Of a stretch of DNA of 22,230 bases, positions 2,048 to 13,927 are shown piece after piece. Position 1 is the stretch's first letter. Each line of letters opens with the position of its first letter. The stretch comes from a virus. The notes beneath the pieces were generated by a model. It was not told the origin of the DNA and searched no databases. It saw only the letters and a program-made list of their open reading frames with translations. The stretch covers positions 1-22,230 of IMG/VR virus record IMGVR_UViG_3300042545_000646; one strand, given 5' to 3'. The position numbers and the translations under genes were made by a program.

Positions 2048-2248
2048 ATGAGAGCAAATGAATTTGTAACTGAAAACTTTGCAGATGGCAAGGTCCGAGG
2101 CAAGAGTCGTCCTGGGCGTGTGAAACGTGCAGGTGCCAGTTGTTCTGGTTCTGTAACTGCCTTGCGTAAGCGAGCCAAAAATTCTTCTGGTGAACGTGCA
2201 AAGATGTATCACTGGTGTGCCAATATGAAGTCAGGTAAAAAGAAATGA
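2048..2248 (+). CDS. Small basic protein with capsid-targeting-like N-terminus
   Basis: A 66-residue, strongly basic protein that opens MRANEFVTE, resembling T4 internal-protein targeting peptides (MKTYQEFIAE type), which direct proteins into the prohead core and are cut by the gp21 protease after (I/L)xE. Here the matching site would be VTE at 7-9. The rest is dense in Lys, Arg, Gly and Ser, with two Cys and an aromatic MYHWCANMKSG near the end, consistent with nucleic-acid binding. The ATG is two bases after the amidoligase stop, and the TGA overlaps the next ATG (ATGA). Packaging inside the head is an inference from the N-terminus and neighbourhood. No enzymatic motif is visible. Confidence 0.75.
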   Translation: MRANEFVTENFADGKVRGKSRPGRVKRAGASCSGSVTALRKRAKNSSGERAKMYHWCANMKSGKKK

Positions 2249-2856
2249 GAGCAAACGAGTTAACAGAATACAGCAAAACCAGTAACAAGATCGACAAGAT
2301 CCTGAAAGCCAAAGGTTACAAACGACTGGGTGCCGGTGTTGATCAAACAGCTTACTTAGAGCCTGGCACAGGATACGTACTCAAAGTATTTGGCACAAAA
2401 GGCGGCGAATCATTCAGTGCTGACCATAAAATGTTTTTTGCCTGGGCAAAATACTGTATGAAAAACGCCGACAACCCGTTCCTGCCACGCTTTGGTGGTT
2501 ACGAAAGTTTTGTACTTGACGGCGATCGGTATCTACAGATACGTCAAGAACCACTCAAGCCCCTGGGAGTTGTCGGGCACGTACTGGAATTGTTGGCAAC
2601 TGCAATTGAGGACAACGGCATTCGAACGTTAGAAGAGGCCGAGGAGTTCATCGAAGACTTTAATGAAGGTTATGTTCCAGCTTTAAAAAAGTTAAAGCAA
2701 CAACTGGGCCCAGGTGGTGTAGAATTGATGTTCAGCACCATACTGAGATTGTATTTGGTTGGCAAAAAAAATGGTTGGTTGTTTGACCTGCATGCTGGTA
2801 ACTTTATGCGGCGTGCCGAAGGTACTCCAGTGATAGTGGATCCCTGGGTGCTGTAA
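2245..2856 (+). CDS. Kinase-fold (protein kinase/APH-like) protein, possible capsid-packaged effector
   Basis: A 203-residue protein with a compact kinase layout. It has a glycine-rich segment LGAGVDQTAY at 28-37, a candidate ATP-binding lysine in YVLKVFG (K47), a catalytic-loop motif DLHAGNF at 181-187 (D181, N186) and a metal-binding aspartate in VIVDPW (D199). This HxxN...D order is typical of aminoglycoside-phosphotransferase-like and small Ser/Thr kinases. The chain ends four residues after D199, so the usual substrate-binding C-lobe is almost absent. The N-terminus MRANELTE looks like a T4-type capsid-targeting and cleavage site (LTE at 6-8), which would allow delivery with the DNA. It is translationally coupled to the gene before (ATGA overlap). 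The substrate is unknown. The kinase fold is well supported by motifs; packaging is inferred. Confidence 0.68.
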   Translation: MRANELTEYSKTSNKIDKILKAKGYKRLGAGVDQTAYLEPGTGYVLKVFGTKGGESFSADHKMFFAWAKYCMKNADNPFLPRFGGYESFVLDGDRYLQIRQEPLKPLGVVGHVLELLATAIEDNGIRTLEEAEEFIEDFNEGYVPALKKLKQQLGPGGVELMFSTILRLYLVGKKNGWLFDLHAGNFMRRAEGTPVIVDPWVL

Positions 2857-2857
2857 A

Positions 2858-2865
2858 CTAAATAC
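2858..2865 (+). promoter_or_regulatory. CTAAATAC motif, candidate late-promoter-like element
   Basis: CTAAATAC sits 3 bases before the ATG at 2869, in a gap with no Shine-Dalgarno sequence. It resembles the T4 late promoter core TATAAATA. The same octamer lies 3 bases before the start at 3086. The distance to the ATG is shorter than expected for a promoter of that gene. Confidence 0.35.
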
Positions 2866-2868
2866 ATC

Positions 2869-3078
2869 ATGCGTATTTTTGAAATTGCACAACCTAAGAA
2901 ATCTAAAATCAAATCTTACTCAGTTAAGATTAAAATACCTGGGCTTGGCGGGTATGTCAATATAACTGACACTATTGTAATGGCAGTAAATCCACAAATG
3001 GCACGTAAATTAGTACAGGTACAATACAATGTTCCTCATGCCATGATTGGTCAACCGCGTGAAGTAAAACTACGCTAA
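2869..3078 (+). CDS. Small basic protein with capsid-targeting-like start
   Basis: A 69-residue basic protein starting MRIFEIAQPKK. The opening resembles the targeting peptides of its neighbours, but the expected glutamate is glutamine (IAQ at 6-8), so cleavage there is doubtful. The body (about 20-69) alternates hydrophobic and charged residues (KIKIPGLGGYVNI, then TIVMAVNPQMARKLVQVQY, then GQPREVKLR), suggesting one small alpha/beta domain. No catalytic motif is visible and I do not recognise a named family. There is no Shine-Dalgarno sequence before the ATG; the upstream bases carry CTAAATAC instead. It lies between the kinase-like gene and another small gene and probably belongs to the same accessory module. 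Confidence 0.65.
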   Translation: MRIFEIAQPKKSKIKSYSVKIKIPGLGGYVNITDTIVMAVNPQMARKLVQVQYNVPHAMIGQPREVKLR

Positions 3079-3082
3079 ATAC
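3075..3082 (+). promoter_or_regulatory. CTAAATAC motif, second copy
   Basis: The same octamer as at 2858, again 3 bases before a start codon (GTG at 3086) and overlapping the preceding TAA. No Shine-Dalgarno sequence is present. It is a candidate T4-late-like promoter core or an unusual initiation context. Confidence 0.35.
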
Positions 3083-3085
3083 AGC

Positions 3086-3376
3086 GTGACCAAACAATTT
3101 ATCAAAGCCCAAATCGACATTCACTGTAAACACAAAGGCAAAGAGTCGCCTTCTTATCGTGTGTTTGTCAACGACGAATTATTTGTCGAACGTACATGGA
3201 TTTGGCCAGGATATTATCTTAGCGAAATGCTACAAATTGAAGCCGAACCCGGTGAATATCATGTGCGAGTAGAGGCAGTTCAGCCCATTGGTGGAAAATT
3301 TAAAACACGTAACCATCGTGTAGAATATGGTCCTGCACGTTGGATCGATGAACAAACATTGGAAATACTAACATGA
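3086..3376 (+). CDS. Hypothetical phage protein, probable beta-sandwich
   Basis: A 96-residue protein read from a GTG at 3086; no nearby ATG would serve. The sequence alternates in a beta-rich pattern: a YRVFVNDELFVERTWIWPGYY stretch (about 24-44; first part YRVFVNDELFVERTW), then PGEYHVRVEAV, then NHRVEYG near the end. This suggests a small immunoglobulin-like or other beta-sandwich fold. It lacks the capsid-targeting-like N-terminus of its neighbours, has only one Cys, and shows no signal peptide or membrane segment. The TGA overlaps the ATG of the next gene (ATGA). The function is unknown. The reading frame is supported by tight spacing and by the overlap on the 3' side. Confidence 0.65.
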   Translation: MTKQFIKAQIDIHCKHKGKESPSYRVFVNDELFVERTWIWPGYYLSEMLQIEAEPGEYHVRVEAVQPIGGKFKTRNHRVEYGPARWIDEQTLEILT

Positions 3377-3528
3377 GAGCCAAAGAATTTGTTAGAGAAA
3401 ACGCATCAGCAGGTGCCACAAGTAGCGGTAGTGTTGCTGCAGTAGCACAACCCATGGGTGCAGTAATTACTCGCACACAAAACCGCAAACCTGGTAAATA
3501 TAAAAACAGTTTAACACGGACCAAATAA
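3373..3528 (+). CDS. Tiny basic protein with capsid-targeting-like N-terminus
   Basis: A 51-residue ORF, easily missed because of its length. The start ATG overlaps the previous stop (ATGA) and the TAA at 3526-3528 lies one base before the Dps gene. The product begins MRAKEFVRENASAG, matching neighbouring targeting-like leaders (VRE at 7-9). It continues with a small-residue segment (AGATSSGSVAAVAQPMGAV) and a basic tail (TRTQNRKPGKYKNSLTRTK). If cleaved after E9, a 42-residue basic peptide would remain. No known domain. It is supported by position, coupling and the shared leader. Confidence 0.66.
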   Translation: MRAKEFVRENASAGATSSGSVAAVAQPMGAVITRTQNRKPGKYKNSLTRTK

Positions 3529-3529
3529 C

Positions 3530-3973
3530 ATGTTATCAGACGATCTAAAAACTTTATTGGCTACACAATATGCATTTGCGGTAAAAGCACAGTACTCTCA
3601 TTGGAATGTGGAAGGACCTGATTTTGCTCAACTGCACAAGTTCTTTGGTAAACTGTACGAGGAAGTCAACGACAACAGCATTGATCAAACAGCAGAATTC
3701 ATACGTGTGTTGGACGAATACACTCCAGGTAGTTTTGAACGTTTTCAAGAACTGAGTCTGATTCCGGGACAGACTAAGGTACCCCGTGCTCGACTCATGA
3801 TCGAAGAACTCTTAGCCGACACCCAGGTCTTGATCGACCTGCTAAATCAGTGTTTTGTGTCAGCTGAACAAGAAAACCAGCAGGGCATTGCTGACTTTGT
3901 GAGTCAACGCCTGGCGGCCATGGGCAAACATGCTTGGATGTTGCGTAGCTTCCTGAAGGACAACAGAGCATGA
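3530..3973 (+). CDS. dps: Dps-like ferritin (DNA-binding protein from starved cells)
   Basis: A 147-residue protein, close to the size of the Dps core. It has the family signature SHWNVEGPDF at 23-32 followed by QLHKFFGKLYEEV at 34-46. Conserved ferroxidase ligands are H24, H36, D52 and E56. The H36-D52 distance looks one residue longer than the usual 15. The C-terminal helix KHAWMLRSFL is also typical. Dps proteins form 12-subunit shells that oxidise and store iron with peroxide, protecting DNA. There is no long basic tail, so direct DNA binding is not evident. It has no capsid-targeting-like leader, unlike its neighbours. It lies one base after the previous stop and overlaps the next gene by ATGA. 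Protection of phage or host DNA during infection is inferred. Confidence 0.85.
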   Translation: MLSDDLKTLLATQYAFAVKAQYSHWNVEGPDFAQLHKFFGKLYEEVNDNSIDQTAEFIRVLDEYTPGSFERFQELSLIPGQTKVPRARLMIEELLADTQVLIDLLNQCFVSAEQENQQGIADFVSQRLAAMGKHAWMLRSFLKDNRA

Positions 3974-5181
3974 AGATAAAAAATCTGTTTGAGGGGTTAA
4001 ATGCTCAACAGCGTTCGGTACCTCAATTGCCTGCTATGGCCAAAGCTAAACATATCAGTGTGTTGGGTGCTAAAACAGATCCTCAGCATCCATTTGCAGG
4101 ATATGCTGTTGGTGCTGACGAAAGTGCCGAGCCAGATCGGAAAAGCATTGGTCCAGACCGGAACGATCCTTTTGAGAAAGGCTGGCGTGCTCAACCCGAT
4201 GCTACTAACCCTTATGCAGCTGGCACACCCGAACATGCAAAATGGCAAGACGGCCGAGATGAGCGTGAGGCACAGCCTAATCATTACGACGAAGATGTAG
4301 CGGAGGCAACAGGTGACGTAAAATTTGATAAGATGCTTAAAGGTATCACCGGTAAAAAAGCAGTAGCTAAACAACAAAAAACAGACACAAAGCAACAGGT
4401 ACGTGATGCGTTTGGTGGTATGTTTGGTGGAGGTAATCCTGCTGATAAACTCAGCATCAGAAACAAAGGTGTGGCGGAAGCTGAGCGTAATGAAATGGAT
4501 ACCCCTGCTGTGCAAGCAGCATTGGCCAAAATGGCCGAGCGTCACCGAGGTGAGAAGTGGACCAAAGAACAGTTAGCAGCCTTAGGCAAACGTATAGCTG
4601 CACGTGGACAAGCCAAGAAAGATGTAGATGAAACTGTGTCTACGCACAAAGGCGGAAAAATAACCAAGACCCCCACTGGTATTAAACATCAAGCTGCACC
4701 CGGTAATTATGGAGGGTACGAACCCGAATTTGACCATTTGCAAACTCTTGATAAAAATACCACAGGCAGGATTGAAAGATCAATGGATATTAAACACAAG
4801 AGAGAAAAAGCCTGGCAAGGTGGAATCGAGTTAGACGAAGCTGTAACCAAAGAAGATATCATCAGTAAACTAAAAGCCCGGTTAGGCGATTACCTGTCAG
4901 ACATTTCTAAAGAAATCAAAAAAGATCCTGACCTGATCGACAAGTTGGCAGCTAAACCTGCTGGAGATCAAATGGGTCCTCCAGTTAAAACCGTCACCAC
5001 AGACGACGGCCACCAAATCTCAATTCACGGCAACGAAGATGACGGATTCCGTATCTCGATCAAGAACAAGCAGGCACCCAGCCAGTTTGCCAACTTGGAT
5101 GAAGCTGTAATGGCCTGCGAAATGTACTGTGCTCGACGCCGTACTCAAGCATTGAACGCTGACTATGTAGAGGAAGCCTGA
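3970..5181 (+). CDS. Large hydrophilic protein with repeated prohead-protease-like sites
   Basis: A 403-residue, highly charged, Gly/Ala/Lys-rich protein with long apparently disordered segments. It starts MKIKNLFEGLN, similar in layout to the targeting-like leaders nearby (LFE at 6-8). Hydrophobic-x-E motifs recur: VAEA at 110-113 and 168-171, VDE at 219-221, LDEA at 288-291 and 376-379, and VEEA at the extreme C-terminus (400-403). These resemble T4 gp21 recognition sites and could divide it into peptides, as happens to scaffold-core and internal proteins. A predicted folded part is a basic helical segment at about 177-215 (PAVQAALAKMAERHRGEKW and following). Residues 292-385 look globular. 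No enzymatic family recognised. It is coupled to dps by ATGA and overlaps the next ATG by one base. Confidence 0.7.
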   Translation: MKIKNLFEGLNAQQRSVPQLPAMAKAKHISVLGAKTDPQHPFAGYAVGADESAEPDRKSIGPDRNDPFEKGWRAQPDATNPYAAGTPEHAKWQDGRDEREAQPNHYDEDVAEATGDVKFDKMLKGITGKKAVAKQQKTDTKQQVRDAFGGMFGGGNPADKLSIRNKGVAEAERNEMDTPAVQAALAKMAERHRGEKWTKEQLAALGKRIAARGQAKKDVDETVSTHKGGKITKTPTGIKHQAAPGNYGGYEPEFDHLQTLDKNTTGRIERSMDIKHKREKAWQGGIELDEAVTKEDIISKLKARLGDYLSDISKEIKKDPDLIDKLAAKPAGDQMGPPVKTVTTDDGHQISIHGNEDDGFRISIKNKQAPSQFANLDEAVMACEMYCARRRTQALNADYVEEA

Positions 5182-5495
5182 TGAGATTTAGAGAAATTAC
5201 CGAAGCTTGCTGGTCAGGATATGAACAGAAAGGCATGAAGAAAAAAGGCAATAGACAAGTTCCAAATTGTGTAAAGAAAACTGACGAAAGCCTAGAGAAG
5301 TATGTGGATAAGGGCGAGTGTCCCAACTGCGGTGGTGAAATGGTCGCAGAAGACCAGATCACGGAAAAACAAGATGCCTGTTATCACAAGGTCAAAGGCC
5401 GTTACAAGATTTGGCCATCAGCTTATGCATCCGGTGCGCTAGTTCGTTGCAGAAAAGTAGGTGCTGCCAACTGGGGTAACAAGAGCAAAAAATGA
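5181..5495 (+). CDS. Basic Cys-rich small protein with targeting-like N-terminus
   Basis: A 104-residue basic protein starting MRFREITEAC (ITE at 6-8, candidate protease site). Three modules follow: CWSGYEQKGMKKKGN...PNCV (10-31), a CPNCGG half zinc-ribbon (47-52), and a C-terminal block DACYHKVKGRYKIWPSAYAS...ALVRCRKVG...NWGNKSKK. The last block resembles part of the DUF5872-type motif (WPSAYASG followed by basic residues), known to me from large viruses and phages; this assignment is from memory. Cys, aromatic and basic residues together suggest a nucleic-acid or metal-binding role. It is part of the overlapping chain: its ATG overlaps the previous TGA by one base, and its own TGA overlaps the next ATG. 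Confidence 0.72.
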   Translation: MRFREITEACWSGYEQKGMKKKGNRQVPNCVKKTDESLEKYVDKGECPNCGGEMVAEDQITEKQDACYHKVKGRYKIWPSAYASGALVRCRKVGAANWGNKSKK

Positions 5496-6154
5496 GAGCC
5501 GCAGAATTCATCTCCGAAAAATGGAGTCAGAAGTACAAGAGCTCGATCAATTGTGCCAATCCCAAAGGCTTCTCACAAAAGGCACACTGTGCTGGCCGTA
5601 AGAAAAACGAGGACCTTGCTGAGAATCTGCGAGACTGGTTCGGCAAAGGCAAAGGCGGCGGAGCCGGTGGCGGTGGCTGGGACAGATACAACACCAAGGG
5701 CGAAAGAATTGGCAAATGCGGTGATCGCAAACCAGGCGAAGGCAAACCCAAATGCCTGAGCAAGAGTCGTGCTGCCAGCCTACGTGCTTCGGGCGGCAAG
5801 AGTGCTATAGCCGCAGCAGTGCGTCGTAAACGTGACAAAGATACCAATCCCGAACGATCGGGTGCAGCACGAAACGTACCAAATAAAAAACAAAACGAAA
5901 ACAAAGATATAGAAACAGAATTATTAAAAAAACAGTTAATGGCACGTCATCCGCAGGCAAAGAATCTCAGTAATGCAATGGCGTTAGATTATTTTAAAAG
6001 TCAACAACAGGATCGCCGAGATATTGTTCGATTAGATCGCGAAAATGATCAAGAGGAAGCAGAAATTGAAAGACTTGACCAAGAAAACGATCAAGAAGAA
6101 ACAGAAATTGAACGTCTTAAAAGAACTATCAATCAACTTACACGAGGGAGTTAA
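5492..6154 (+). CDS. Basic Gly-rich protein with targeting-like N-terminus and C-terminal coiled coil
   Basis: A 220-residue protein. It begins MRAAEFISEKW (ISE at 7-9), the closest match in the window to the T4 targeting/cleavage pattern. Next come a Cys-containing module SINCANPKGFSQKAHCAGRK (19-38), a Gly-rich stretch, and a basic module GGGWDRYNTKGERIGKCG through CLSKSRAASLRASGGKS (about 56-105), which resembles the second half of DUF5872-like proteins. A basic linker follows, then a C-terminal coiled coil with two 14-residue repeats (RLDxENDQEExEIE). The N-terminal half is strongly basic and the C-terminal quarter acidic and helical. ATGA overlap couples it to the previous gene. Head packaging and DNA binding are inferred; no enzyme motif is seen. 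Confidence 0.72.
   Translation: MRAAEFISEKWSQKYKSSINCANPKGFSQKAHCAGRKKNEDLAENLRDWFGKGKGGGAGGGGWDRYNTKGERIGKCGDRKPGEGKPKCLSKSRAASLRASGGKSAIAAAVRRKRDKDTNPERSGAARNVPNKKQNENKDIETELLKKQLMARHPQAKNLSNAMALDYFKSQQQDRRDIVRLDRENDQEEAEIERLDQENDQEETEIERLKRTINQLTRGS
6029..6112 (+). repeat. Two tandem 42-base coding repeats (coiled-coil)
   Basis: Units 6029-6070 and 6071-6112 encode RLDRENDQEEAEIE and RLDQENDQEETEIE. The DNA has diverged at third positions more than the protein. A partial third unit (RLKRTINQL) follows. Confidence 0.8.
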
Positions 6155-6157
6155 TAC

Positions 6158-6382
6158 ATGAAACCTATTCTTATAGTATTAGCAGCGACAGCAGCATTAA
6201 CAGGTTGCGTGATATCAGATCCTTACTATGTACAACCACAGACAGTATATGTTCAACCGCGTCCAGTGTACATTCCACCTCCGGTATATTATAGACCACC
6301 GCCACCAATACCACAGTGCTATTGGGTACAGCGTTGGAATCCACAGTATCGCACGTATCAGAATGTCAGGGTATGTAGATAA
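6158..6382 (+). CDS. Pro/Tyr-rich small lipoprotein
   Basis: A 74-residue protein with a lipoprotein signal peptide: basic start MKP, hydrophobic stretch ILIVLAATAA, then lipobox LTGC with lipidated Cys at 17. The mature part is dominated by Pro, Tyr, Val and Gln (repeats of the YVQP/VYIPPP kind) and ends with CYWVQRWNPQYRTYQNVRVC, whose two Cys could form a disulfide. It is probably anchored in the cell envelope of a Gram-negative host. Phage lipoproteins of this size include outer-membrane spanins (Rz1 type, also Pro-rich) and superinfection-exclusion proteins; no partner inner-membrane spanin is seen next to it. A good Shine-Dalgarno sequence (GAGGGAG) precedes the ATG. The stop overlaps the next small ORF (TAATG). 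Confidence 0.78.
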   Translation: MKPILIVLAATAALTGCVISDPYYVQPQTVYVQPRPVYIPPPVYYRPPPPIPQCYWVQRWNPQYRTYQNVRVCR

Positions 6383-6453
6383 TGCCATATCCTGTATATC
6401 CAGAACTTCCAGTTGACAGCGATTGGAAACGCAATCCTTACGCACCCACATGA
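6382..6453 (+). CDS. Possible 23-residue Pro-rich micro-ORF
   Basis: A very short frame encoding MPYPVYPELPVDSDWKRN and a few more residues. Its ATG shares a base with the lipoprotein stop (TAATG), and its TGA overlaps the ATG of the next ORF (ATGA). That double coupling is the arrangement used by real genes throughout this region, and without it there would be an unexplained gap. No homology can be claimed from 23 residues, and it could be chance. Confidence 0.4.
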   Translation: MPYPVYPELPVDSDWKRNPYAPT

Positions 6454-6659
6454 CCAGAGAATATAGAATACGTTCAGAGTCCTACAGCAAAGATACCACA
6501 GATGACTGTTATCTCGATCCCAGCGATCCCATATATGAGATAAAACAGCAAGCAGGATTGAAAGATCGAGTAGTCAATAAATTTACTACGCAAGAAATAC
6601 AAGATCAAGGACTACAACCCGGTACTACCAAGTGGTTCCAAATGATGTTTGGAAGATAA
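6450..6659 (+). CDS. Small acidic hypothetical protein
   Basis: A 69-residue protein read from the ATG at 6450, which overlaps the stop of the preceding micro-ORF. An in-frame TTG at 6423 is less likely because it lacks a clear ribosome site. The sequence is hydrophilic (MTREYRIRSESYSKDTTDD, then CYLDPSDPIYEIKQQAGL) and ends with PGTTKWFQMMFGR. That hydrophobic end suggests a short binding peptide or a helix that packs on a partner. No known family, signal peptide or membrane segment. The stop is one base before the next gene. Confidence 0.55.
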   Translation: MTREYRIRSESYSKDTTDDCYLDPSDPIYEIKQQAGLKDRVVNKFTTQEIQDQGLQPGTTKWFQMMFGR

Positions 6660-6660
6660 C

Positions 6661-6852
6661 ATGAGAGCAACAGAATTTGTTTCCAAACGCAGAAAAAAAG
6701 TCAACGAATTAGATTTCTTAGGCAGTCCTTGTACCAAAGACTGTTCGGGTCATCGTGCCGGATATGCATGGAGTAAGCGTAAAGGAACAGTGCCTGCTAG
6801 CCGTAGCCCCAGTTTCAACAAAGGTGCAGCATTACAGGCGGCAGGAAAATAG
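6661..6852 (+). CDS. Small basic Cys-containing protein with targeting-like leader
   Basis: A 63-residue basic protein starting MRATEFVSKRRKK at the ATG at 6661. The leader matches its neighbours for six residues (MRAxEF), but the glutamate of the cleavage motif is Lys (VSK at 7-9); NEL follows at 15-17. The central module PCTKDCSGHRAGYAWSKRKG (23-42) has two Cys and a His spaced as in a small metal or nucleic-acid binding knuckle. The C-terminus is Ser/Ala-rich and basic. It is the last gene of the accessory run before a structured intergenic region. Packaging is inferred by analogy with the neighbours. Confidence 0.68.
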   Translation: MRATEFVSKRRKKVNELDFLGSPCTKDCSGHRAGYAWSKRKGTVPASRSPSFNKGAALQAAGK

Positions 6853-7643: not shown

Positions 7644-10310
7644 TTGAGTTATGTAGATGCCCTGTTCGATCGAGACAAAGATCGAATCCACGTAGTTGAA
7701 CGCATCAACGGCGTTCGCAAATATCAAGAGTATCCAGCAAATTATATTTTCTATTACGACGACCCCCGCGGTAAGTTTCGTAGTATCTTCGACACACCGG
7801 TTGCACGTTTCAGCACAAGAAACAACAAGGAGTTTCGCAAAGAAATTCGCATGCACACCGGCAAACAACTCTTCGAAAGCGATATCAATCCTGTATTCCG
7901 TTGCCTAGCAGAAAACTTCCTAGGTGCTGATGCTCCTAAGTTACACACAGCATTCTTCGACATTGAAACAGACTTCGATCCTGTGCGTGGATTCTCCAGC
8001 ACAGAAGAAGCTTTCAACAAAATCACAGCCATTACAGTTTACTTGGATTGGTTGGATCAACTGGTTACACTAGCTATCCCACCCAAGTCAATGAGCATGG
8101 AGACTGCTAGAGAGATTGCAGCTGAATTTGACAACACATTCATGTTTGAAAAAGAAGCAGACTTGTTGGATTCGTTCCTGCATCTAATTGACGATGCTGA
8201 TGTGCTGTCGGGCTGGAACAGTGAAGGTTATGATATTCCTTATACTGTGAATCGTGTTACACAAGTATTGAGCAAGGATGATACCAGACGTTTTTGTCTA
8301 TGGGGACAGATGCCCAAGGCTAGAACCTTTGAACGCTTTGGTAAAGAAAGTCTAACATTCGACTTGGTAGGTCGTGTGCATATGGACTATATGCAACTGT
8401 ATCGCAAGTACACATATGAAGAGCGTCACAGTTACAGCTTGGATGCCATTGGCGAGTACGAAGACCTTGGTTCAAAGACCGCATTCGAAGGCACACTGGA
8501 TCAACTGTACAATCAAAACTTCCGCACGTTTATTGAGTACAACAGACAAGACGTGTTGCTGGTTAACAAGATTGATAAGAAACTAAAGTTCTTGGATCTT
8601 GCCAATACCATTGCACACGAAAACACAGTGCTGTTGCCAACCACAACAGGTGCGGTTGCAGTAACCGAGCAGGCCATCATTAACGAAGCTCATGCACGTG
8701 GCATGGTTGTTCCAAATCGTCGCAGCTACGGTGATGATGACAACACTCAAGCAGCTGGTGCTTATGTGGCATATCCTAAAAAGGGTCTATGGCAAGACAT
8801 TGGATCCATTGACATCAACAGCTTGTATCCATCAGCTATTCGTGCCTTGAACATGGGACCAGAAACCATTGTGGGGCAACTGCGTCCCACAGCTACAGAT
8901 GCCTTAATCAATGAACGCATGAGCAAGGGCATGAGCTTTGCAGCAGCCTGGGAAGGTTTGTTTGCAACCTTGGAATATACCGCTGTGATGGAACAGAATC
9001 GCGGCTTTGAACTCACTGTTGATTGGCAAGATGGCACCAGTACCACCATGTCAGCTGCGGAGTTTTGGCCCATTATATTCAACAGCAACAAGCCCTGGAT
9101 CATCAGTGCCAATGGCACTATCTTCACATACGACAAGGAAGGAATCATTCCGGGCTTGCTGGCACGTTGGTATGCTGAACGCAAAGAAATGCAGGCTACA
9201 CTTACTCGAGTAAAGGAAGAAGGCAATGCTGAACTGGAAGAATACTGGGACAAACGTCAGCTTGTTAAAAAGATTAACCTCAACAGCTTGTATGGTGCTA
9301 TTCTTAATCCTGGTTGTAGATTCTTTGACAAACGCATTGGACAATCAACAACACTGACTGGTCGGAGCATTGCCAAACACATGGATGCTTATGTGAATGA
9401 GTGTATCACTGGCCGATATGATCACGTAGGCGACGCCATCATTTACGGCGACACAGACTCGTGCTACTTTACAGCATATCCTGTACTGAAGAAAGAAATA
9501 GATGCAGGCCGCATGGTCTGGAACAAGGATACAGCCATTGCGTTGTATGACAGCATTGCTGATCAAGTCAACATCAGCTTTCCTGGCTTCATGGAACAGG
9601 CTTTTCATTGCCCCCGTGAGATGGGTGCTATCATCAAGGGTGGTCGAGAAATTGTTGCCAGCAAGGGCTTGTTTATTACCAAGAAGCGTTATGCTGTGTT
9701 GTTCTATGACAAGGATGGCAAACGCTATGATGTGGGTGGCAAACCTGGCAAGGTCAAGGCCATGGGCCTGGATCTCAAACGTAGCGATACTCCTAAGGTA
9801 ATTCAGGACTTCTTAAGCGATATTCTCAACGATGTACTCAACGGCGTTGGGCGAGATCCTATTATAGAAAAGATTCGTGATTTCAAATATCTTTTCAAAG
9901 AACGTCCAGGTTGGGAAAAAGGTTCGCCTAAGCGTGTCAACAACTTGACCATGTACGGCAATAAAGAAATCAAAGAAGGAAAAACCAACATGCCTGGTCA
10001 CGTGCGAGCAGCTATTAATTGGAATAATCTTCGACGCATGAACAGTGACAACTACAGTCTAGCAGTCACAGACGGTATGAAAGTTATTGTGTGTAAATTA
10101 AGGCAAAATCCCTTGGGGTGGACGTCAATTGCTTATCCCACAGATGAACAACATTTGCCCAAATGGTTTACAGAACTACCATTCAATGATGCCGAAATGG
10201 AAGCCACTGTTATTGACGGAAAGGTAGACAACTTATTAAGTGTATTGGAATGGGACTTGGCATCCGCAACTAACACAGATAATACTTTTGAAAATTTATT
10301 TGAGTTCTAA
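7644..10310 (+). CDS. 43: T4-type family B DNA polymerase (gp43-like)
   Basis: An 888-residue replicative polymerase, close to T4 gp43 (898). Exonuclease motifs are DIETDF (106-111), GWNSEGYDIPY (190-200) and YNRQD (299-303). Polymerase motifs are A DINSLYPS (390-397), B KINLNSLYGA (543-552) and C YGDTDS (601-606), followed by KKRYAV. All catalytic carboxylates are present, so both synthesis and proofreading should work. The C-terminus ENLFEF resembles the clamp-binding tail of T4 polymerase, fitting the sliding clamp gene downstream. The start is TTG at 7644 with GGGAG eight bases upstream; an in-frame stop lies at 7578 and no ATG intervenes, so a non-ATG start is forced. The stop directly abuts the next ATG. 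It is GC-richer than the following gene (55% in 9001-9060, counted by hand). Confidence 0.96.
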   Translation: MSYVDALFDRDKDRIHVVERINGVRKYQEYPANYIFYYDDPRGKFRSIFDTPVARFSTRNNKEFRKEIRMHTGKQLFESDINPVFRCLAENFLGADAPKLHTAFFDIETDFDPVRGFSSTEEAFNKITAITVYLDWLDQLVTLAIPPKSMSMETAREIAAEFDNTFMFEKEADLLDSFLHLIDDADVLSGWNSEGYDIPYTVNRVTQVLSKDDTRRFCLWGQMPKARTFERFGKESLTFDLVGRVHMDYMQLYRKYTYEERHSYSLDAIGEYEDLGSKTAFEGTLDQLYNQNFRTFIEYNRQDVLLVNKIDKKLKFLDLANTIAHENTVLLPTTTGAVAVTEQAIINEAHARGMVVPNRRSYGDDDNTQAAGAYVAYPKKGLWQDIGSIDINSLYPSAIRALNMGPETIVGQLRPTATDALINERMSKGMSFAAAWEGLFATLEYTAVMEQNRGFELTVDWQDGTSTTMSAAEFWPIIFNSNKPWIISANGTIFTYDKEGIIPGLLARWYAERKEMQATLTRVKEEGNAELEEYWDKRQLVKKINLNSLYGAILNPGCRFFDKRIGQSTTLTGRSIAKHMDAYVNECITGRYDHVGDAIIYGDTDSCYFTAYPVLKKEIDAGRMVWNKDTAIALYDSIADQVNISFPGFMEQAFHCPREMGAIIKGGREIVASKGLFITKKRYAVLFYDKDGKRYDVGGKPGKVKAMGLDLKRSDTPKVIQDFLSDILNDVLNGVGRDPIIEKIRDFKYLFKERPGWEKGSPKRVNNLTMYGNKEIKEGKTNMPGHVRAAINWNNLRRMNSDNYSLAVTDGMKVIVCKLRQNPLGWTSIAYPTDEQHLPKWFTELPFNDAEMEATVIDGKVDNLLSVLEWDLASATNTDNTFENLFEF

Positions 10311-12403: not shown

Positions 12404-13927
12404 ATGACCGAACAACACAATCTCACAGCTAACCAAAAAGACTACGCTGTATTCCTTCCGGCCATCAGCAGTTTCTATGCCAATTATGTGGGCCGTCAAC
12501 GTACTGAAAACTACATTGACGCCACACGTATGCCTGCTGGCATTCCCGACATGGAACAACTCAACTGGTTAAATCCACAGAAAGGTCTGTTCCCGTACAG
12601 GTACAGTTTGTATAGTGCAGGACACGCAGACTTGGATTTGACCAAGTTTGTGCCCAAAGAAGACATGGTTCGCAACAGAGACCCCAACACCATCATGTTG
12701 GCTGACTCAGGTGGGTTCCAGATTGCCAAGGGTGTATGGCCCGGACGTTGGGCTGATCCTACAGATAAGGCCGCAGAAAAGAAACGCGAAGCTGTGCTTA
12801 AATGGCAGATGGGCATTGCCACACACGGCATGACCATGGATATTCCCACTTGGACTTATCGAGATCCCAAAGCCGCTGCCTTATGTGGTATCCACAGTTA
12901 TGACGATGCGGTCAATGCAACCAAGTTCAACAACGAATACTGGATGGCCAATCGCTACGGTGAAACCAAGATCCTAAACGTGTTGCAGGGTGGTAACCAT
13001 ACGGAAGCAGATCTTTGGTATGACACAATGAAAGACTACTGCGATCCCAGCAAGTACAAAAAGCATTTCAACGGCTGGGGTATGGGAGGTCAGAACATGT
13101 GCGACGTCGAACTGGTTCTCAAACGCTTGGTACACTTGATTCATGATCGTTTGCTGGAGCCTGGCATACACGACTGGATGCACTTCTTGGGTACAAGTAA
13201 ATTGGAATGGGCTGTGTTGTTGACAGTTATTCAACGTAGTGTTAGACAGTATCACAACCCTGGCTTTACCATCAGCTTCGACTGTGCCAGTCCGTTCTTG
13301 GCCACAGCTAACGGTCAGTTGTATCACAACATTACAACTGAAAATCGTAAAAAGTGGAGCTACAACATGAGCCCCACAGCCGATGATAAGAAGTATGCGG
13401 TAGACAACCGTTTGTTTGGCGACGCAGTAAGACAAGACGGCATTCATCCCATGTTTGAAGACAGTCCTTTAAGCAGCCGTTTGAAGATTTCGGATATCTG
13501 TTATTACAAGCCTGGAGACCTAAACAAGATTGGCAAAGAAGGTCGGACCAGTTGGGACAGTTTCAGTTATGCTCTGCTTATGGGTCACAATGTTTGGACA
13601 CACATTGAAGCTGTACAACGTGCCAATCGTATGTTTGATTCGGGTGTATGTCCGGACATGATGGTGCATCCGATCAATCCCGATTATGACGTGGCCAAGG
13701 TTATTGATCGTGTTTTCGCTGCTCGAGATCGCTCAAAGAGCTTGCAAATTATTGCAGACCATGCTAAAGTATGGGAACGGGTAGTAGGAACACGTGGGTT
13801 TACTGGCAAGCGAGCAGTTAACTCACACAGTCAATTCAACAACCTATTTGACATGGAAGAAGAGGAAATCCCAGTGGATGATCTCGATGAAGGTCAATTA
13901 GACAAACTAGAAAATAGTATAGAGTGA
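12404..13927 (+). CDS. dpdA: DpdA-type DNA-guanine transglycosylase (TGT superfamily)
   Basis: A 507-residue protein with the tRNA-guanine transglycosylase active site in order: DSGGFQ (101-106), D146 in MDIP, LQGG (194-197), GWGMGG (224-229, base-binding glycines), and SFDCASP (291-297), where D293 matches the nucleophile. The bacterial TGT zinc motif CxCxxC is not visible, and the protein is longer than TGT (about 375-385). That layout, in a phage replication region, fits DpdA, which swaps guanine in DNA for a 7-deazaguanine such as preQ0, blocking restriction. The C-terminal tail is acidic. Translation probably follows the clamp directly (TAA then ATG). Its TGA overlaps the GTG of the next gene. 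A tRNA or other substrate cannot be excluded; the subfamily cannot be set here. Confidence 0.82.
   Translation: MTEQHNLTANQKDYAVFLPAISSFYANYVGRQRTENYIDATRMPAGIPDMEQLNWLNPQKGLFPYRYSLYSAGHADLDLTKFVPKEDMVRNRDPNTIMLADSGGFQIAKGVWPGRWADPTDKAAEKKREAVLKWQMGIATHGMTMDIPTWTYRDPKAAALCGIHSYDDAVNATKFNNEYWMANRYGETKILNVLQGGNHTEADLWYDTMKDYCDPSKYKKHFNGWGMGGQNMCDVELVLKRLVHLIHDRLLEPGIHDWMHFLGTSKLEWAVLLTVIQRSVRQYHNPGFTISFDCASPFLATANGQLYHNITTENRKKWSYNMSPTADDKKYAVDNRLFGDAVRQDGIHPMFEDSPLSSRLKISDICYYKPGDLNKIGKEGRTSWDSFSYALLMGHNVWTHIEAVQRANRMFDSGVCPDMMVHPINPDYDVAKVIDRVFAARDRSKSLQIIADHAKVWERVVGTRGFTGKRAVNSHSQFNNLFDMEEEEIPVDDLDEGQLDKLENSIE

Follow-up and report, generated by a model that had tools for sequence, protein, structure and literature searches.

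Organization of the locus

We analyzed a 22.2-kb virus record (IMGVR_UViG_3300042545_000646, the whole of which is called the window here) from a freshwater T4-like phage, in which eight genes between positions 2048 and 6852 encode proteins that start with a similar short leader. The original prediction, made from the letters alone, was that this leader is a capsid-targeting sequence (CTS) resembling those of the T4 internal head proteins, removed by a gp21-like protease after a Glu residue, and that the bodies behind it are packaged with the DNA. All eight open frames were present, with the N-termini that had been read. The genes of this cassette are listed below, with lengths in amino acids (aa); an arrow marks the predicted cut, P1 is the residue before it, and net charges refer to the body.

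2048..2248, + strand: leadered protein 1, 66 aa; MRANEFVTE↓ and basic module A (NFADGK...MYHWCANMKSGKKK); net +15
2245..2856, + strand: leadered protein 2, 203 aa; MRANELTE↓ and a predicted protein-kinase-like domain (DLHAGNF...VIVDPW)
2869..3078, + strand: leadered protein 3, 69 aa; MRIFEIAQ, P1 being Q and not E; basic body, +9
3086..3376, + strand: unleadered 96-aa gene within the cassette, GTG start; counterparts in contigs G001 and G002
3373..3528, + strand: leadered protein 4, 51 aa; MRAKEFVRE↓ and NASAGATSSGSVAAVAQPMGAVITR (putative copy of the mature capsid-protein N-terminus), then a basic tail; net +7
3530..3973, + strand: Dps/ferritin-like protein without leader (Pfam Ferritin, E=2.7e-19)
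3970..5181, + strand: leadered protein 5, 403 aa; MKIKNLFE↓; net -1; no PHROG or Pfam match
5181..5495, + strand: leadered protein 6, 104 aa; MRFREITE↓ and Cys-rich modules D (CWSGYEQKGMKKK..VPNCVKK) and E (DACYHKVKGRYKIWPSAYASGALVRCRK); phrog_727, E=7.7e-28
5492..6154, + strand: leadered protein 7, 220 aa; MRAAEFISE↓ and modules B (KWSQKYKSSINCANPKGFSQKAHCAGRKK) and F (KPKCLSKSRAASLRA..KRKRDKDTNP); phrog_727, E=8.2e-14
6158..6382, + strand: 74-aa gene without leader; ALTGC, read by eye, may be a lipoprotein signal
6450-6659: unleadered gene within the interval
6661..6852, + strand: leadered protein 8, 63 aa; MRATEFVSK and module C (SPCTKDCSGHRAGYAWSKRKG); ATG at 6661, the frame being listed from TTG at 6649

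Among isolate records, the DNA polymerase of the window (7644-10310) was nearest to those of Sinorhizobium phage Phosso, at 51%, and of Agrobacterium phage Atu_ph07, at 49%; the capsid proteins of these two phages are 73% identical to each other. Atu_ph07 has been placed among the T4-superfamily jumbo phages (PMC6102473). From a scan of viral contigs for polymerase relatives, we took the best 80 loci (polymerase identity 74-97%). The polymerase of contig L002 is 97% identical to that of the window, and the kinase gene of the window is identical to one on a 55-kb contig and 70% identical to that of contig L411. The leader was surveyed in 85 related contigs (2.3 Mb, 3,182 called genes); the genes were called with a simple script of our own, so the counts are approximate and some starts may be wrong.

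The leader recurs on different proteins

The strict leader pattern, ^M[RK]..E[FLI][VIL]?.E, matched five of the eight named genes (2048, 2245, 3373, 5181, and 5492). With shuffled N-termini, the 33 genes called in the window gave a mean of 0.01 matches (maximum 1 in 500), and no match occurred at internal Met residues (0/147). Six of the eight leaders ended in hydrophobic-x-E (VTE, LTE, VRE, LFE, ITE, and ISE). A looser pattern matched seven window genes, as compared to 0.43 upon shuffling, but was not used for counting because it was little above its shuffles in most other sets. As had been claimed, the leader was absent from replication genes and dps: the polymerase, clamp, and Dps proteins of the window all lack it.

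Among the related contigs, 51 of the 3,182 called genes, distributed over 26 contigs, carried the strict leader (shuffle mean 0.54, maximum 6 in 300), and the pattern occurred at 1 of 13,987 internal Met residues. Because ATGA stop/start overlaps favor R or K at position 2, a control was also run among genes starting with M[RK], in which 51 of 635 were strict (shuffle mean 1.06, maximum 5 in 1,000). The bodies of the 51 proteins, the annotation of which is partial, fell into 16 clusters (blastp, E 1e-3), so the leader occurs on many different proteins. All 51 genes lay on the strand of the polymerase gene, and 45 of them lay at most 12 kb upstream of it, as compared to 738 of 3,160 genes on the polymerase-bearing contigs; this proximity is partly due to ascertainment, since most loci were fetched around the polymerase gene. 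The description of most bodies as small and basic agreed with the charges, six of the eight mature bodies in the window being +7 to +15 (the 203-aa body is +1 and the 403-aa body -1). Net-positive bodies were found in 42 of the 51 strict-leader genes versus 1,084 of 3,131 other genes.

Between the window and its relatives, the E, hydrophobic, and E positions of the leader were constant and the x positions varied (MRANEFVTE and MRAHEFIQE; MRAKEFVRE and MRAREFIKE), the L411 leaders being MRAHEFIQE, MRAAELTE, MRAREFIKE, and MRIKNLIE. Counterparts of leadered protein 5 start with MRIKNLVEG (G008) and MRIKNLIEG (L411), and those of leadered protein 3 with MRLIEIAQ (G008), MRYKEIKPV (G001), and MRLSEISLP (L411).

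A widened pattern matched 12 of 942 genes in Atu_ph07 (0.44 shuffled). Nine of them, mostly MRWEQLTE-like, stand side by side at 41.8-50.6 kb; by our own count they are coding sequences (CDS) 54-63, within a block (CDS 31-76) that contains 29 virion-detected proteins. In the same region of Atu_ph07 (record L409, 39484-50592) about ten similar-looking genes follow each other in a row, most with MRWEQLTE or MKWEQLTE starts and an early YRG motif, and in the end member of the row a Zeta-toxin-type kinase domain is combined with a C-terminal capsid-arm copy. A reading of the YRG proteins as ADP-ribosyltransferases was set aside; one of these proteins had no Pfam match.

In three relatives, a leader ends where the capsid cut is predicted

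The original prediction proposed a search for a gp21-like protease and for head-protein cleavage sites matching the ends of the leaders. The contigs nearest to the window are fragments. Our first capsid search used narrow patterns; after it was widened, the best 80 records were taken. A polymerase check of 16 records then left four (G033, G034, G035, and G037) in which a capsid protein occurs together with a polymerase that shares 62-67% identity with that of the window. These four were scanned; seven large records with polymerase identities of 48-59% were among those left out. Peptidase_S77, the gp21-type protease family, was found in 4/4, as well as in the T4 control. An early suspicion that the lineage lacks T4 head genes was dropped once these relatives showed gp21 and gp23.

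The capsid proteins of the four relatives are 71-73% identical to that of Phosso. T4 gp23 loses 65 residues upon maturation (PMC7136217, PMC9958956), and alignment to it placed the predicted site of the relatives at YL(A/S)E↓(S/Q/T)ATAG(A/G)TSAGNVATLN. In G037, the capsid protein reads YLAE↓SATAGATSAGNVATLN and a cassette protein reads MKISELLE↓TATAGATSAGNIATVANP; the latter matched the Phosso capsid protein by blastp (E=8e-6, 65% over 34 residues). The corresponding cassette protein of G033 is MKIREIFE↓TATAGATSSANIATVVSP, with a leader of the strict type, as in G037, and that of G034 is MKINEIIIRRINNE↓QATAGATAAGNIAALNNP. Thus, in three of the four relatives (G033, G034, and G037), a small cassette protein repeats the capsid junction and the capsid residues that follow it, and therefore the leader ends where the capsid cut is predicted. 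The proposed match between leader ends and the phage's own head-protein cleavage motif was borne out in relatives at this predicted site (LxE↓ in the capsid protein), in G033 and G037 and, with a longer leader, in G034. The leader was also present on proteins of the head gene cluster, at 82279 in G033 (MRLTEILTE↓SQELEEG) and at 114226 in G037 (MRINELLTE↓SQQVELQEG), in genes located 66-73 kb from the polymerase gene.

The last observation bears on whether the leaders could lack any function and be left over from a recent duplication, or from a hot spot of recombination located at the starts of genes. The leadered genes are adjacent, some of their starts overlap the upstream stop, which favors M-R/K, and modules are shared among the bodies in differing combinations, as such a history would leave. 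However, synonymous codon differences occur at several places among the five window leaders that start with MRA, while the residues are constant, and strict leaders persist at 62-67% polymerase identity, including those of the distant head-cluster proteins. We consider this explanation extremely unlikely.

Alternatively, the leader might be a docking tag only, which binds a phage complex, be it the prohead core or another, and is not cut. This would fit the two window leaders without Glu at P1, and also T4 IPIII, in which targeting and processing use different CTS residues (PMC9026906). However, hydrophobic-x-E is retained in the remaining six leaders, with x variable and E constant, and the junction copies the predicted protease junction of the capsid protein in three relatives. 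An uncut tag is, in our view, very unlikely. With non-random leaders and a junction that matches the predicted capsid site of relatives, the capsid-targeting reading found support at the level of sequence.

Several results weigh against that reading. P1 Glu is missing from 2/8 window leaders (2869, IAQ; 6661, VSK), although L002 has MRATEFVSE in place of the latter, and the 14-residue leader of G034 ends in INNE, in which P3 is not hydrophobic. The leader tag is not uniform across the superfamily: the strict pattern was found in no gene of G035 and in 0/292 genes of T4, the CTS of which is one residue longer and is therefore missed, and the widened pattern was found in four T4 genes (0.24 shuffled), 0/825 Phosso genes, one gene of S-RIM50, and at least one of Bellamy, where the gene caller missed gene 122. 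Among the contigs nearest to the window, all of them fragments, the Pfam Gp23 and Peptidase_S77 profiles had no match in 17 longer ones of the first 80, the Phosso capsid protein as a query gave no match, and a search of four of the nearest, for gp23 only, found none.

One cassette protein resembles the N-fist of the capsid protein

The 51-aa leadered protein 4 (3373-3528) carries, behind its putative cut, a segment that resembles the N-terminus of gp23 after cleavage, followed by a basic tail. A tblastn search with this protein in phage records found no match, so its capsid likeness came via relatives only: against six jumbo-type gp23 arms of relatives it scored 55-67, as compared to 29 +/- 4.5 for shuffles, none of which (0/200) reached the best score. 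The copied part corresponds to the N-fist of T4 gp23 (residues 66-91). This structure of 25 residues is in contact with four subunits, and in the subunits next to the portal it is disordered (PMC7136217, PMC9958956). Among the open-access papers searched, the term N-fist was found in two.

A similar arrangement was found in T4 gp61.1 (54 aa), which reads MKTFKEFIKE↓DMVAGDSGGNPENISIGTTSGAVVNKGP with a lysine-rich tail and resembles gp23 E↓AEIGGDHGYNATNIAAGQTSGAVTQIGP. By phmmer, gp61.1 aligned over 37 residues to solved gp23 (E=0.007), the likeness reaching its residue 39. Our search of the open-access literature found no described function of gp61.1. One cassette protein appears to mimic the front end of the phage shell protein, as the little-studied gp61.1 appears to do. 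A tblastn search with gp61.1 gave 1,440 records at E <= 10, some with a second place elsewhere, one of which is labelled major capsid protein; 2 of the 40 matches listed were annotated as 'major capsid domain-containing protein', and annotators have therefore noticed the capsid likeness.

We then scanned all open reading frames (ORFs) of a phage against its own capsid arm and took the best non-capsid ORF (in S-RIM50 and Phosso, the capsid protein itself was part of the background). The z scores were 11.7 for T4 gp61.1, 8.6 for G033, 11.8 for G034, 10.6 for G037, 10.3 for a 778-aa protein of Atu_ph07, in which the copy is C-terminal, and 12.6 for S-RIM50 gene 192, one gene from the primase gene. 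In a score matrix with the four usable T4-type arms (dhaeg, phiP4-3, P19, and Ah1 being excluded), eight T4-type copies scored 61-105 on these arms and at most 37 on others. With jumbo-type arms, the copies of the window, L411, G003, G033, G034, G037, and Atu_ph07 scored 42-88, as compared to no more than 46 elsewhere, and the G001 copy scored 35-45, as compared to at most 34. The S-RIM50 copy reached 102 with its own arm, 68 with that of Bellamy, and at most 45 with the remainder. T4-type, cyanophage, and most jumbo-type copies are most similar to capsid arms from within their lineage group.

The likeness of most copies to their group's arm could mean that they are passive duplicates of the start of gp23, homogenized by gene conversion. 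However, the copy lies near the primase gene in the inspected T4-likes and S-RIM50 but at other places in the jumbo relatives and the present group, and in the cases seen it has a tail containing Lys or Arg and never continues into the capsid fold. Passive duplication is thus quite unlikely. The position is also informative about the window protein: in T4, in seven T4-likes, and in S-RIM50 the arm-copy gene adjoins the primase gene or lies one gene away from it, and 3373-3528 adjoins dps and not the primase gene. Because of that, we term its product an analogue or distant relative, not gp61.1.

It is somewhat less improbable, but still unlikely, that the copy is not a capsid ligand but a decoy substrate for the prohead protease, which it would titrate or time. 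In favor of a decoy, the copy begins at a cut-site-like Glu in T4 gp61.1, in G033, G034, and G037, and in the window protein. On the other hand, the likeness extends well past the site, to residue 39 of gp61.1, and the copy in S-RIM50 follows Met, with no cut site before it.

The T4 protein MAKINELLRE↓STTTNSNSIGRPNL, which we take to be gp24 from its position, has no N-fist-like arm after its 10-residue propeptide, and this suggests that N-fist sites at the vertices may be empty.

The arm copies have their own counter-evidence. In six of the seven T4-likes translated, the copy is the C-terminal end of a protein of about 120-160 aa, with no leader directly before it; the copy of Atu_ph07 is C-terminal, and that of S-RIM50, directly after Met, also stands behind no N-terminal leader. 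Phosso gene 449 is marginal (47 versus 46 for the next ORF, although 0/200 shuffles reached the best score), and several other arms give it a higher score than the arm of Phosso itself does. The all-ORF scan found no arm copy in Bellamy, and the scores in G035 and G002 were not significant, being reached by 27/200 and 50/200 shuffles, respectively.

In the gp61.1 of six T4-likes (L313-L318), an extra N-terminal domain of about 80-130 aa (F..W.A...GII...G...FH..VR.LK) precedes the arm copy.

Bodies of the leadered proteins

The product of 2245-2856 matched a PHROG kinase family (E=1.1e-9, residues 7-82) and had no match in Pfam. Its best AlphaFold2 model, from three input sequences, had a predicted local distance difference test (pLDDT) score of 81, as compared to 64-68 for four others; in the best model, residues 1-11, comprising the leader, had a pLDDT below 50 and are predicted to be disordered. 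A Foldseek search against PDB gave 45 matches at E <= 0.001 (best E 1.2e-4, template-modelling score at most 0.45), and all 50 matches listed were kinases, pseudokinases, or small-molecule kinases. By comparison of this model with solved structures, the protein is predicted to have a protein-kinase-like fold.

Other predicted enzymes occur on leadered proteins of relatives: GNAT in G001 and G002 (above the Pfam cut-off) and, more weakly, in G008, GH19 with LysM in G033, and GP88 in G001. A 595-aa protein of G003 has a kinase region and a weak GNAT match. In G001, G002, G003, and G008, leadered proteins of greater length carry module A of leadered protein 1 as their C-terminal part.

The Cys-rich modules of window genes 5181 and 5492, in the region of which blastn matches of the window were found (at about 5371-5606 and 5636-5752), recur in cyanophage proteins: module E in S-RIM50, S-B68, and Bellamy, and module D in S-RIM50 and Bellamy. 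Cyanophage genes located between the terminase genes carry CTS-like leaders (S-RIM50 109, MKSYNEFISE), and one of them, Bellamy gene 122, joins the leader MKSFKQFQE to module B of window gene 5492. S-B68 QBP06184 combines modules of 5181 and 5492 and starts with an arm copy (score 93 on the S-RIM50 arm). Its depositor label is structural protein (T4-GC0119); as T4-GC119 is termed hypothetical in PMC3037559, we did not take this label as proteomic proof.

With regard to neighboring genes, a dps gene in the middle of the cassette was also seen in G001, G002, G003, G008, L410, and L411, and none was seen in the cassettes of G033, G034, G035, and G037. Positions 1-2045 of the window encode an amidoligase-domain protein that is seemingly cut by the window start; its G008 counterpart, upstream of the cassette, has 1,467 aa and starts with MDIKELQDYRLSDAIKFHNSLNPRIW, and similar starts occur in G001, G002, and G003. 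At 12404-13927 lies the gene for a 507-aa protein without PHROG match, the ADSGGFQ of which resembles a tRNA-guanine transglycosylase motif.

Proposed role of the cassette

On this evidence, we think it highly probable that the shared N-terminus is a T4-type CTS that is cut by the prohead protease, and that the bodies are kept in the head. The leader of 8-9 residues would draw each protein into the prohead core, where a gp21-type protease would cut after the terminal Glu (hydrophobic-x-E↓). The mature bodies, namely small basic Cys-rich modules and a kinase-like enzyme, and GNAT and GH19 proteins in relatives, would remain beside the DNA inside the head and would probably be ejected along with it. 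The 51-aa member would, after the cut, expose a copy of the capsid N-fist followed by its basic tail. It may then dock at capsid sites that normally hold the N-fist, with the tail toward the DNA, most plausibly at vertices where no N-fist is supplied.

More tentatively, virion proteins composed of an N-fist copy and a basic tail, gp61.1 included, might form an unrecognized class across much of the T4 superfamily, sitting at empty gp24 or portal-vertex sites and tethering DNA or internal proteins; we regard this as possible but doubtful. With similar reserve, such a class could span T-even and related phages, jumbo phages of Agrobacterium and probably of Sinorhizobium, at least some cyanophages, and the freshwater group studied here, and be matured by the same cut where a leader is present.

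If the capsid-targeting reading is true, the import of phage proteins into the head, worked out in T-even phages, extends to an uncultured freshwater group, and a sequence rule allows candidate payloads (kinase-like, acetyltransferase, GH19, and Cys-rich basic modules) to be listed with no more than the genome at hand. The arm copy can be addressed directly in T4, where, if its proposed role is true, an overlooked primase-side protein belongs to a much-studied virion.

Comparison with known systems

The closest likeness is to T4 IPI, IPII, IPIII, and Alt, which have N-terminal leaders of about 10 residues and basic bodies, several per genome (PMC9026906, PMC9958956). Upon injection, the internal proteins of T4 inhibit restriction enzymes (PMC12373910). 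One T4 leader, MKTYQEFIAE, occurs on two proteins. In contrast to the T4 internal proteins, the cassette leader is usually one residue shorter and often M-R-A, and the bodies are different (kinase-like, GNAT, GH19, and Cys-rich modules); the lineage of the window is also nearer to the Agrobacterium/Sinorhizobium jumbo phages than to T-even phages. T4 gp61.1 shares with the 51-aa protein a CTS-like leader, a likeness to the mature gp23 N-terminus, and a basic tail. However, gp61.1 copies a T4-type arm and is encoded next to the primase gene, whereas the window protein copies a jumbo-type arm and is encoded beside dps.

In SPN3US and phiKZ, head proteins also have propeptides that are removed by the prohead protease and for which a targeting role was proposed, but these are mostly long (several >100 residues) and have other cleavage motifs (PMC5694885); our comparison to these phages is by description only. 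Among cyanophages, S-B68 QBP06184, Bellamy 122/123, and S-RIM50 108/109/192 share modules B, D, E, or F with the window, and the likeness extends to the CTS-like leaders of Bellamy 122 and S-RIM50 109 and to the arm copies in S-RIM50 192 and S-B68. Their modules are mostly fused in longer proteins, encoded between the terminase genes in S-RIM50 and Bellamy, whereas in the window they are distributed over separate small genes beside dps and the polymerase gene.

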